Assembly (NCBI GenBank): GCA_036703985.1
Contig: DATNQN010000029.1
Coordinates: 62,001 to 126,000, forward strand
Source of the DNA: Leptolyngbyaceae cyanobacterium
GTDB taxonomy: Bacteria > Cyanobacteriota > Cyanobacteriia > Cyanobacteriales > Aerosakkonemataceae
Reading direction: 5' to 3'
Length of the DNA: 64,000 nt
The translations under genes were made by a program, and so were the position numbers. The notes under the pieces are model-generated. The model made no database searches. It was given only the letters and a program-made list of their open reading frames with translations, and had not been told where the DNA came from. Positions 16,944 through 21,948 of the stretch are shown here, one piece after another; positions within the stretch are counted from its first letter, which is position 1; the number at the start of each line of letters is the position of its first letter.

Positions 16944-17771
16944 CTACAAGAGAGTATCCATTAAGTTCATCACTCTAATGGCTCCCTCGTTTAAAGTATC
17001 CGTTTCTGAGGGTTCGAGTTGATGTTCGAGCAAGCCTTTGAGGGCAATTAGTTTAAAGCTGTTTTCTGCTGCCGACTGCGCGATCGCTTCTGCGGCGGGT
17101 AGATAACCAATGGCACCCAAGTCAGACAATGCAACTCGGCGCAGTTGAATATCTTTGCCCGACAAAGCTTGTACGAGCCTGTTTCCATAAGTTGACTCTT
17201 TTGTCAACTGGTACATAGCTCTCGTGGCGGAGTATCGCACTCGTTCTACGGAGTGTTCTAAAAAGGGTTGAATCAAAGGAACTGCTTCTTTTGCACCCAG
17301 CAATCCCAGTGCTTCGATCGCCGCTTCGTAGGGTTGTGCTAAGTGCGGCTGTCCCGGTACTTGCACGGCTGCTTCTACTCCACCGGATAGCAGCTGCATC
17401 AACACTGGAATGCAAGTTGGGTTTGCCAACATCCCCAGCGATTGAGCAGCTGCTTCTCGCACGTAATAGTCGGAGCATTCCAAACACTTGAGCAGGCTGG
17501 GTACAGCACGCCGATCTCCGATTTTTCCCAAAGCCCTGGCAGCATTGCGCCGTAGGGGATATCCTCCTAACTCGGTGCGATCGGCTTCATCTTCTAAAGC
17601 GGCGATCAGAGCATTTACTGCGGCTTGAGTTTTGACTTGGAATTTTCCCAGCCACCAAGCGGCATAGTAGCGGAGGCTTAAATCTTCGTGAGTTAAATTG
17701 GCGATCGCTTGCTCTACCGTTAGCGACGGGGAATTGGCTTCGCCATATGCCTCAGGATTGGGCTCCTGCAT
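16944..17771 (-). CDS. cpcE: Phycocyanobilin lyase subunit CpcE
   Basis: CpcE is the partner of CpcF in the alpha-phycocyanin bilin lyase. The 275 residues are built of HEAT/PBS-type repeats, such as NLTHEDLSLRYYAAWWLGKF near the N-terminus, RRNAARALGKIGDRRAVPSL, VREAAAQSLGMLANPTCIPV and VRYSATRAMYQL. Full length. It lies 24 bp after cpcD, so translation is likely coupled within the operon. The order cpcB-A-C-D-E-F is the standard one. Confidence 0.95.
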   Translation of the reverse strand: MQEPNPEAYGEANSPSLTVEQAIANLTHEDLSLRYYAAWWLGKFQVKTQAAVNALIAALEDEADRTELGGYPLRRNAARALGKIGDRRAVPSLLKCLECSDYYVREAAAQSLGMLANPTCIPVLMQLLSGGVEAAVQVPGQPHLAQPYEAAIEALGLLGAKEAVPLIQPFLEHSVERVRYSATRAMYQLTKESTYGNRLVQALSGKDIQLRRVALSDLGAIGYLPAAEAIAQSAAENSFKLIALKGLLEHQLEPSETDTLNEGAIRVMNLMDTLL

Positions 17772-17795
17772 GAATCTAGTAAAAAATCCCCTTAA

Positions 17796-18083
17796 TTATT
17801 CTGCCGATTTAGCAGCTTTAGCAGGCTTAGCAGGTGCTTGCGCTGCTTCTTCAGCTGACATCGACTGAATGTTGACGATTTTGCCACCAAGACGGGCAAT
17901 CCGCCGCATTTCTTCATTCATGCGGCTGTATGGCACGGTGATAAACACGCTGCCACTACGACGGATGGCGTAGTTATTTTTGTCGTTTTCTTCGTTTTGG
18001 CGTAAGCCAACTACTTCATAACGAAAAACACGGCTACCAGAGGGGGTATTGGCAGCGCTTCCAATGGCGGTTTGACCAAGCAT
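17796..18083 (-). CDS. cpcD: Phycobilisome small rod-capping linker CpcD
   Basis: CpcD caps the distal end of phycocyanin rods. Residues about 15-76 are the CpcD-like domain: SRVFRYEVVGLRQNEENDKN, FITVPYSRMNEEMRRIARLG and GKIVNIQSM. The last 15 or so residues are an Ala/Lys/Pro-rich extension (AQAPAKPAKAAKSAE) that is not part of the domain and makes the protein 95 aa, longer than the roughly 80 aa I expect for CpcD. It has its own ribosome site (AGGAGGT just before the start at 18083). Confidence 0.94.
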   Translation of the reverse strand: MLGQTAIGSAANTPSGSRVFRYEVVGLRQNEENDKNNYAIRRSGSVFITVPYSRMNEEMRRIARLGGKIVNIQSMSAEEAAQAPAKPAKAAKSAE

Positions 18084-18150
18084 TGTTTTTGATACCTCCT
18101 GTAATGGAAATTTCAGATTTCAAATTTCCGACTTTAGATTTTATTGGCAA

Positions 18151-18180
18151 TCTAAAATCTAAAATCTAAAATCTAAAATG
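18151..18180. repeat. CTAAAAT heptamer repeat between cpcC and cpcD
   Basis: Four head-to-tail copies of a 7-nt unit (TCTAAAA) directly after the cpcC stop. A less regular stretch of the same unit precedes it. The same motif recurs in the spacer by the TldE gene (about 47795-47850) and near 5590 as TCTAAAG. No coding frame. Confidence 0.75.
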
Positions 18181-19041
18181 CTATGCGGGGGTGACGCTGA
18201 TGATTTTGCCGCCACTGCGGAGAATTTGCTGCATCTTGTTAGATAAGTTTTCGTAAGGCACCAGGAATGCCGTGCTGCTGCGACGCACGCCGGGATATCC
18301 GGGCTGACGAATACCAGCTACTTCGATGCGGTAAACGCGACCGCTTTCTCCATAGGAACCGCCCAAGCAGTTACGAGGAGCAACGTCGTTGCTAGCGCGG
18401 TAGTAAGACCAGTTGCTAGCACCGGAAGGCTCGACTACCGTGCTGGGGAGATTGCGAGCTAAATCGCGAGCGAGGCGAGTGTTATTGCCTTCTGCTTGAG
18501 AGCGATCGCTATTTGCATAACCACGGTACAAGCGGAAGATCCGATTGAAGCCTACGCTTCTTTGGCCTGCTTGATATTCAAAACCGCGATAGTAAGGTAC
18601 GATATTGTCGCCGAAATTAGCTTGATATTCCAACGAGTCGATGTAGGAATCTATTTCAGCGTCGTAACCTTTGTTTTCGTACAAATCGAGGTGGTAAACC
18701 ACTTCCGATTCGTCATAAGGAGCGCGTCCCAGAAGATGCTTATAATTAAGTTCGATCAACCGGGTTTGGAAACTGTTGTAGAAAAACTTGGTTTTGTATA
18801 GCTCTGATTTAGCTACGGCGCGAACGAATTCTTTGACGGTCAGGTTGCCATCTCGCAACAAAGATTCGGCACTGACGAGCCGTTCGGATGCCATGATGTA
18901 GTCGTTACCGAGAACTTGGCGGTATACCGCACGAATTACGTTCTCGATTTCTTCTTTGCTGGCGTAAGGCCGTAGTTCAACTTTCGGTGATTCGCTAAAA
19001 GCCGAAGTTCCCAATCGGGAAGCTGCTGCTGTGATCGCCAC
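18181..19041 (-). CDS. cpcC: Phycobilisome rod linker CpcC
   Basis: CpcC joins phycocyanin hexamers in the rods. The N-terminal linker domain has [38 protein letters not shown] and [20 protein letters not shown], the rod-linker signature. The C-terminal part (about residues 235-286) is a CpcD-like capping domain with [20 protein letters not shown] and [10 protein letters not shown]. The 286-aa length is usual. Only one cpcC is present. A hairpin lies between cpcA and cpcC, and the operon continues into cpcD. Confidence 0.96.
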
Positions 19042-19088
19042 TTTGAAATCCTCCCAACAATGGTACGAAGCTCTTTAGATACAACAAT

Positions 19089-19148
19089 GCCCGGAGAGAT
19101 AAGCAACTGCTAGTCTTTTTGAACCAGCACCTGCATACCCTTCCGGGC
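19089..19148 (-). promoter_or_regulatory. Stem-loop in the cpcA-cpcC spacer
   Basis: GCCCGGA at 19089-19095 pairs with TCCGGGC at 19142-19148, closing a loop that itself has partial pairing (around GCAACTGC and GCACCTGC). It begins 13 bp after the cpcA stop. In other cyanobacteria a hairpin at this place limits read-through or protects cpcBA mRNA, so the linkers are made in lower amounts than the subunits. Here it is seen; that role is inferred. Confidence 0.5.
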
Positions 19149-19160
19149 GATCGCGATCGA

Positions 19161-19649
19161 TTAGCTCAGGGCGTTGATCGCGTAGTCGATGTAGGTGTTA
19201 GCTTCGTTAGCAGCTTGACCGCTCAAACCGTGGTTAGCTTTGACGTACTTGAGGGCTTCTACGTACCAGCTAGGAGACAAATCGAAAGCGCTGTTGATTT
19301 CGCTCAAACCAGCGATCAGGTATTCATCCATTGGACCTGTACCACCAGCAACTAAGCAGTAGGTAACCATCCGCAGGTAGTAACCGATGTCGCGAGCGCA
19401 CTTGGACTTGCCTTCAGAAGTGGAGGCATAGTTAGCGCCTTGCATTTGGGTGGTGTAAGGGAACTTTTGATACACAGCTTGGGCTGCGCCATCAATCAAC
19501 TTTTGAGCGTTGTTGGTGAGAGCGCGAGCAGCTTCCATGCTAGCGGTAGCACGCTCTAAACGGCCACGAACGCTTTGCAGTTCGGTGTTGCTCAGGAAAC
19601 GGCCTTGGGTATCGGCTGCGGCGATCGCTTCAGTGATAGGGGTCTTCAT
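19161..19649 (-). CDS. cpcA: Phycocyanin alpha subunit
   Basis: CpcA, the 162-residue alpha subunit of C-phycocyanin. It carries one bilin on Cys84, in the motif [16 protein letters not shown]. The start [20 protein letters not shown] and the end [10 protein letters not shown] are the expected ones. GGAGAT lies about 11 nt before the ATG. It lies 107 bp after cpcB, the usual arrangement in one transcript, and forms the alpha-beta monomer with the upstream gene product. Confidence 0.99.
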
Positions 19650-19756
19650 GTTTTCGGTATCTCCGGAATCTCTAAAGTTTGCTAACTAAATTTGGCGAAA
19701 AATCGCAGGTAGAGTAGCTTTTTAGAAACTATCCTACGGGCTACTAAAGGCAGTTA

Positions 19757-20851
<1,095 letters not shown>

Positions 20852-21676
20852 CTAACTAAAAGAATTTGCTTGGGCCACCCGCCGACGCAGTACTTCTAGA
20901 AGCGTAATGAAGTGAGATGGCAGAGGTGCGGTAGCTTTTATCATCTGTCTAGAGATAGGATGTTGCAAAGTAAGTTGCCAAGCATGGAGTGCTTGACCCG
21001 GTAAGTTGACCCCCACATCGCGTCCCGAACTGTAAACCGGGTCACCGACGATGGGATGACCCATAGACAAACTATGAACGCGAATTTGATGGGTACGTCC
21101 CGTTTCTAGCTGGAAGTGGATCAGGGTGTAGTTACCCAAGCGTTCTTTGACCTGCCAGTGAGTCACCGCAGAACGTCCCCCTTTTTCTTCCGGGACAACA
21201 GCCATTTTTTTGCGATCGACCGGATGGCGACCGATCGGTTGGTTAATTGTCCCGCTTTCTGTTTTGGGAGAACCGTAAACCACACCCAGGTATTCCCGGC
21301 GGGCGGTTTTGGCTTTTAGTTGTGCTTGTAAGTCTTGATAAGCTTGGTCAGTTTTGGCCACTACCATTGCCCCAGTGGTATCTTTGTCCAAACGGTGGAC
21401 AATTCCGGGACGTTGGACGCCACCAATTTCTGCTAGGGGACAATGGGCCAACAAAGCATTAACCAAAGTACCTGCTTCGTGTCCCGCAGCGGGGTGAACA
21501 ACTAATCCTGCAGGTTTGTTAATAATTAGCAAATGGTCATCTTCGTAAAGAATATCGAGGGGAATTTCTTCTGCTTGAAGTTGACTAACTTCTGCGTTAG
21601 GGATGGAAATGTGAATGTTTTCTCCTGCTTTAACGATGCGATTTTTGCTAGGGCAAATTTCCCCATTGATTTTCAC
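20852..21676 (-). CDS. RluA/RluD-family pseudouridine synthase
   Basis: An RNA pseudouridine synthase of the RluA/RluD family. The catalytic motif GIVHRLDKDTTGAMVVAK holds the active-site Asp; LETGRTHQIRVHSLSMGHPI is the second signature. The first ATG/GTG/TTG of the frame is the GTG at 21676, but the frame is open above it to about 21840 and encodes an S4 RNA-binding domain (DRLDRWISSKL and SRSRIQKLIEQGWVKINGE). Homologs include this domain, so the true start is probably upstream, perhaps an ATT at 21823 or 21838, or the start was lost by mutation. The coordinates here are the conservative ones. Confidence 0.85.
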   Translation of the reverse strand: MKINGEICPSKNRIVKAGENIHISIPNAEVSQLQAEEIPLDILYEDDHLLIINKPAGLVVHPAAGHEAGTLVNALLAHCPLAEIGGVQRPGIVHRLDKDTTGAMVVAKTDQAYQDLQAQLKAKTARREYLGVVYGSPKTESGTINQPIGRHPVDRKKMAVVPEEKGGRSAVTHWQVKERLGNYTLIHFQLETGRTHQIRVHSLSMGHPIVGDPVYSSGRDVGVNLPGQALHAWQLTLQHPISRQMIKATAPLPSHFITLLEVLRRRVAQANSFS

Positions 21677-21948
21677 CCATCCTTGTTCGATCAGTTTTTG
21701 AATGCGGGAACGGGAAAGCTCGGTTAGTTTGCTAGATATCCAGCGGTCTAGGCGATCGATCTGATTTTCTTTGAGGAAGTTGTTGGTTTCGTTAACTGTT
21801 AGGTTAATTTCAGCGTGAGAAATGGTAGTTGCTTGAATTCGACATTTTCTATTTTACGGTTTTTTTTACCGCAGATATCCACAGATGAACGCAGATGAAC
21901 GCAGATATATACCTGCATTTTTTGTGGATAGACGATCTTCCTTGTTTG

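Follow-up and report, generated by a model that had tools for sequence, protein, structure and literature searches.

An RluD-type pseudouridine synthase gene in the window (the whole 64,000-nt stretch of DNA analyzed) appears to be translated from a rare AUU start codon that recurs at the same place in relatives from several families. RluD is the 23S rRNA pseudouridine 1911/1915/1917 synthase. The gene lies at 20852..21823 on the minus strand, and its start codon, we strongly infer from the sequence, is the ATT at 21821..21823. Comparisons among relatives revealed a conserved codon, a conserved leader, and purifying selection on the S4 domain codons above the first canonical start. Taken as a whole, the explanation that we regard as very likely is that this rluD is started by AUU at 21823 behind a short leader, with weak and IF3-sensitive initiation and a low level of RluD. 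As one of two readings, the initial annotation of this DNA had proposed a rare AUU start, preferably at 21823, and the same codon and leader in 18 genomes from six families support that reading. Beyond that proposal, the trait is common to several families, and a further family has a conserved ATT of its own.

Reading frame and domains of the gene

On the minus strand, the rluD reading frame stays open from an in-frame TAA (21856-21854) down to its own stop (20852). As previously claimed, no ATG, GTG, or TTG occurs in this frame between the upstream stop and the S4 RNA-binding domain; the earliest is a GTG at 21674..21676 (minus strand), which lies within S4. The three ATT codons listed in the initial annotation (21838, 21823, and 21808) are all in frame. 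When the protein is read from upstream, S4 (PF01479, E 4.6e-9) and the catalytic RNA pseudouridylate synthase domain (PF00849, PseudoU_synth_2, E 7.8e-33) both score above the Pfam cut-offs. A protein of 323 aa started at ATT 21823 keeps the S4 match (residues 24-70; 21614..21754, minus strand) ahead of the synthase domain (residues 97-251; 21071..21535, minus strand), which includes the presumably catalytic stretch HRLDKDTTG. In a protein started at GTG 21676, the S4 match disappears even at an E-value limit of 1, which agrees with the earlier observation of a clear S4 domain above this codon. GTG 21676 is thus likely to be a false start of the kind expected from standard gene callers.

An N-terminal S4 domain joined to PseudoU_synth_2 with an HRLD stretch is the RluD-type architecture. 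The protein is a member of the RluA/RluD family (TIGR00005; 335.9 bits, cut-off 192.7), and its closest solved structures are the RluD-named chains 7bl5, 1v9f, and 1qyu (E about 1e-67). Because its score against the RluD equivalog model NF008385 (283.1 bits) is under the cut-off of 351, the gene is named RluD-type and not RluD equivalog. The sole other match in the genome of the window is distant (34%, residues 91-307), such that one gene of this kind was found. Just 3' of rluD and on the same strand, the ORFs at 16944-20275 (minus strand) are what we take to be a phycocyanin operon-like cluster, with beta and alpha subunits, rod linkers, and a CpcE-like lyase.

Conservation of the start codon and its leader

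The 5' region of rluD was compared across families f1 (the family of the window), f3, f22, and f27, each searched whole, 14 genomes read from f18, and one genome from f11. All 10 genomes searched in the window's family carry rluD. In 18 genomes, the same order of elements was found: NANAAT, 9-11 nt, GRRTTC, 11-12 nt, and an ATH codon. This arrangement is present in 10/10 genomes of f1, 2/2 of f22, 1/1 of f3, 1/1 of f27, three of the 14 read from f18, and the one seen from f11; the f18 (L195, L201, and L227) and f11 (L239) members lay outside the first alignment. In the window, whose gene is L001 among the leader genomes, the elements are TAAAAT (21851..21856, minus strand), a -10-like hexamer with a putative promoter role that contains the frame-bounding TAA, then GAATTC (21835..21840, minus strand), the local form of GRRTTC, and, after 11 nt, the proposed start codon. 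The spacer between motif and codon is one base shorter in L001, L009, L010, and L239 than in the others. The codon itself is ATT in 15 of the 18 genomes, ATC in two (L002 and L011), and ATA in one (L007).

Half of the leader genomes (L001, L002, L008, L009, L010, L011, L013, L195, and L239) have no canonical start before S4. The remaining nine have one or more canonical codons there at scattered positions, including an upstream ATG in L003, L004, L007, L201, and L227 and, in several genomes, a GTG, TTG, or ATG further down. The leader ATG is in frame in the first four of these five, and initiation may occur at that codon in L003, L004, L007, and L201. In three other genomes, only one or two codons separate the ATH codon from a preceding in-frame stop (TAA in L002 and L005, TGA in L239). 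The ATH codon is the only start candidate common to all 18 leader genomes. In Phormidium sp. LEGE 05292 (L033), the peptide encoded at the 5' end matches that of L009.

The sequence around the codon has few other initiation signals. A Shine-Dalgarno match of at least four bases at a plausible distance was found in none of the 18 leader genomes except L009 (AGGT), with L001 judged by eye. Since a simple sigma-70 consensus scan did not call the NANAAT hexamer (TAAAAT in the window) as a promoter, the promoter and the short leader are treated here as putative. Among 29 sequences, secondary structure around the start codon gave no clear signal, and accessibility around the ATH codon was slightly above that of shuffles (0.67 vs. 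0.59). The idea that ACUAU next to the codon mimics the loop of helix 69 was dropped, given that the sequence is not conserved (e.g., ACCATT and AACATT). For a normal Ile codon at this position, the expected frequency of ATT is 0.52 in clade 1 and 0.72 in family f20; the observed counts are 15/18 and 13/13, an excess that is only suggestive because the rows are related. The leader pattern, allowing one mismatch, has 31 matches in the 10 genomes of the window's family, seven of them at rluD, against 34 for a backward control. The GRRTTC leader pattern is therefore not a common element, and the idea that it serves other genes was abandoned, there being no excess over the control in these genomes.

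Several observations concern the immediate surroundings of this leader. Among the 14 genomes read from f18, three relatives of L195 (L018, L190, and L192) have a similar but altered leader with TTG near the old ATT place, and eight have other canonical starts without the leader; a shift between ATT and TTG starts inside this family is possible. In the Oculatella-family search, L163 and L167 have GATAATAGA and then AGGGTTGAGTAT or GGAGTTGAGTAT ahead of a TTG start. The resemblance of this element to the clade-1 leader may reflect homology. Short ATCTGCGTTC-type repeats occur at 21870-21906 of the window, upstream of the -10-like hexamer, and L006 has repeats of a similar kind (CTCTGCGTC) ahead of its rluD. 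Extra IF3-like genes were found in the window's genome (G000:C18:20591-21037), G002 (C6 and C5), and G006 (C252 and C209), with one match in each of the other seven of the 10 family genomes. The three genomes with the extra genes are also the three members of the family whose spacer is 11 nt long, which may be a coincidence among few genomes, two of them sisters.

Family f20 was searched after two of its genomes proved to have no canonical start. An rluD match at 1e-80 was obtained in 25 of 27 genomes, and 13 of these 25 share ATT CAA at the place where other cyanobacteria carry GTG ACA GAA ATT or ATG; GAA ATT follows ATT CAA in nine of the 13. A canonical start ahead of S4 is missing from 12 of the 25, namely 11 genomes with ATT CAA and a Hyella (L277). 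One of the ATT CAA genomes without a canonical start (G054) is a single-contig genome. The sequence reads TAG ATT ATT ATT CAA in L289 and TAA ACT ATT ATT CAA in L281, leaving scant room for any other start codon. GAGG or GGAG stands just ahead of the ATT in four of 11 f20 rows.

A wider survey counted 232 distinct rluD 5' regions, after near-identical entries had been merged and weakly matching distant paralogs removed. S4 is preceded by no canonical start in 22 of them (nine leader genomes, 12 from f20, and L073). This fraction is not a population rate, since the sample leans towards f20, the family of the window, and its order. The other regions all have a canonical codon, in five of them only outside the range of 18-45 codons ahead of the reference point; within that range, ATG occurs in 98 regions, GTG in 75 without such an ATG, and TTG in 32 with neither. 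L073 belongs to Oculatella; of the 30 other genomes matched in the search of its family, 24 were surveyed and none joined the list. Relatives without S4, which would have counted against the initial annotation, did not turn up, and no surveyed locus was set aside for a missing S4.

In a quick RluD tree, 14 leader rows group with the canonical L025 and L118 in a single 16-row branch (support 96). When f18, f11, and f20 are added, f20 stands apart, and the leader rows are spread across several branches with canonical rows interspersed. At least nine changes of the ATH state are required on this wider quick tree, also when L159 (from the same genome as L073) is left out. The ATH start may be either an old trait that was repeatedly lost or one gained more than once, and these trees are compatible with both histories.

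Selection on the S4 codons and alternative starts

Selection was examined in eight genome pairs in which both partners have no canonical start before S4, with each comparison running from the S4 start to whichever partner's canonical codon comes first (26 codons or fewer). For these codons, pooled pN is 0.096 and pooled pS is 0.546. In the uncut stretch q29-q54, pN is 0.102 and pS is 0.566, a ratio of 0.18, compared with 0.33 in the next 36 codons; the uncut stretch passes a canonical codon in some f20 genomes, and the cut version gives the same ratio. L009 and L010 differ by five synonymous and no nonsynonymous changes in 26 S4 codons, and the window gene and L002 differ by nine synonymous and five nonsynonymous changes in the S4 codons above the first canonical start. 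In L009, L010, L281, and L286, the first 60 codons counted from the S4 start include no canonical codon. Purifying selection thus acts on S4 above the canonical start, and the translated product therefore includes S4.

These results bear on the other reading offered in the initial annotation, in which the start was lost by mutation or sequencing error and the S4 domain is dead. One form of it, that the protein starts at GTG 21676 with S4 lost or dead in the genome of the window, would agree with this GTG being the earliest canonical start in frame. However, the S4 codons above it are under purifying selection in pairs of genomes without a canonical start, and Pfam recognizes no S4 in the protein that begins there, making this form extremely improbable. 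We give equally little credence to a sequencing error or recent frameshift that hides a true start at the out-of-frame ATG at 21843..21845 (minus strand). This ATG, which together with 10 further codons precedes a stop in a different frame, does lie just upstream. However, the aligned relatives do not share it, whereas the AT[T/C/A] codon and the leader recur in 18 genomes, and a frameshift from ATG 21845 was rejected. None of the relatives' 5' regions points to a corrected in-frame ATG in the window gene.

Other alternatives keep the S4 domain and move the start. Initiation further upstream, at an ATA or ATT of the leader or an ATG in some species, would make the leader coding (an ATIEIDEF-like peptide). 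In 11 of the 18 leader genomes (L003, L004, L006, L007, L011, L012, L013, L016, L195, L201, and L227), the gene can be read in frame back to an ATG, ATA, or ATT that precedes the motif, and upstream initiation is possible there; several of these leaders would encode similar peptides, and four genomes have ATG. However, the position of the codon differs among species, and both spacers vary by single bases. In the other seven (L001, which is the window gene, L002, L005, L008, L009, L010, and L239), the gene frame holds no ATN upstream of the motif, such that an upstream ATG-like start is excluded in these genomes. For the window gene, an upstream start with a coding leader is very improbable. 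Initiation by AUU at 21808 or 21838 instead of 21823 is unlikely, if a little less so. Both codons are in-frame ATT, and 21808 is a conserved Ile position that is ATG in L012. However, 21808 corresponds to the ordinary Ile that follows the GTG start of relatives (GTG ACA GAA ATT), and L011 has no stretch between 21823 and 21808. The codon at 21838 arises only where the motif reads GAATTC/GGATTC and the spacer is the shorter one. It is for 21823 that the distance to the motif is constant within one base.

Proposed mechanism and known rare starts

Under initiation at ATT 21823, the mRNA would probably begin just downstream of the -10-like TAAAAT, leaving a short leader (about 20-25 nt) that lacks a recognizable Shine-Dalgarno sequence. 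Initiation at AUU is expected to be weak because pairing with the initiator tRNA is imperfect, and such complexes would be rejected more often under active IF3. As a predicted outcome, RluD would be scarce, and its amount would vary with the conditions of initiation. AUU initiation in the cell, the transcription start, and IF3 sensitivity are what we infer from the conserved codon and leader. By analogy with infC and sigR, initiation of rluD is probably sensitive to IF3. The conservation of a rare start suggests that the cell may deliberately limit or regulate the translation of rluD.

AUU starts are known for few bacterial genes. Rare starts are described for infC, pcnB, sigR, cvfC1, and ccpN (PMC1780047; PMC5472188; PMC13009471). 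IF3 discriminates against AUH codons, and Escherichia coli infC has an AUU start through which IF3 regulates its own synthesis (PMC5472188; PMC1780047). Like infC, rluD would combine a rare AUH start with a role in ribosome function; the window gene has no canonical start before its first conserved domain, and its AUH codon is conserved at one place. It differs in being another gene and in having no recognizable Shine-Dalgarno sequence in clade 1, the signal expected ahead of such a codon. In addition, an ATG in frame precedes the IF3 match of infC in 10/10 genomes of the window's family, and hence there is no general start-codon shift in this family.

The other examples offer partial parallels. 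In E. coli pcnB, the AUU start reportedly keeps the protein scarce, as proposed here for RluD; pcnB encodes another enzyme in another lineage, whereas the AUU of rluD is kept over several families. Streptomyces sigR is likewise a gene other than infC with a rare start that is reported to be repressed by IF3. However, sigR has a GTC start and encodes a stress sigma factor, in contrast to the proposed ATT start and rRNA-modifying enzyme of rluD. In Staphylococcus aureus, an initiation-profiling study reports AUH starts for infC (AUA), cvfC1 (AUU), and ccpN (AUA), and reporters with the cvfC1 and ccpN starts yield less than their AUG versions (PMC13009471). Those S. aureus genes have an extended Shine-Dalgarno sequence that is absent in clade-1 rluD.

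A connection between initiation and RluD may also be considered. The three pseudouridines in helix 69 are products of RluD, and the footprints of IF3 on the 30S subunit are located where helix 69 docks (PMC1190176). A feedback between initiation and RluD is imaginable because the helix that RluD modifies docks at this place. More speculatively, a weak start could let the supply of RluD follow ribosome status, via helix 69 near the IF3-covered bridge region. That in several families, the six with the shared leader and f20 with its conserved AUU behind a different leader, rluD is controlled through its start codon in an IF3-dependent manner, as an infC-like feedback from ribosome maturation to the ribosome's own modifying enzyme, is a tentative idea drawn from this analogy and less likely than not.

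A search of titles and abstract openings, with most subscription papers outside its range, found no report of a conserved rare start on cyanobacterial rluD. A preprint on genes that prefer non-AUG starts is cited in PMC9845219. Rare AUH starts themselves are already known, and what would be new here is a conserved one on rluD, in cyanobacteria. Gene callers restricted to ATG, GTG, and TTG miss AUU starts, and for rluD the resulting cut would fall inside S4. If the proposed start is true, the N-terminus of rluD needs correcting in at least 22 of the surveyed 5' regions. The gene would also be a case of a ribosome-modifying enzyme with a conserved AUH start, and experiments could then ask directly whether initiation stringency and rRNA modification are linked.

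Within the window's genome, a coding-like stretch of at least 30 codons above the first canonical start was found in three of 240 scored genes (464 kb), rluD included, and rluD ranks only sixth of the 240 by its modest codon score. Stretches of this kind are uncommon but not unique; what exceeds chance for rluD is its conservation in relatives. The other two cases, a split guanylate-cyclase domain and a DUF6745 fragment, look interrupted or truncated. At L302:14156-14638 (minus strand), the guanylate-cyclase Pfam match begins at profile position 28, and the apparent missing part lies upstream past an in-frame stop; this gene is probably interrupted. The DUF6745 fragment at L300:15668-16159 (minus strand) covers positions 50-201 of 206 in the profile, has 54 coding-like codons above its first canonical start, and probably belongs to a truncated gene.
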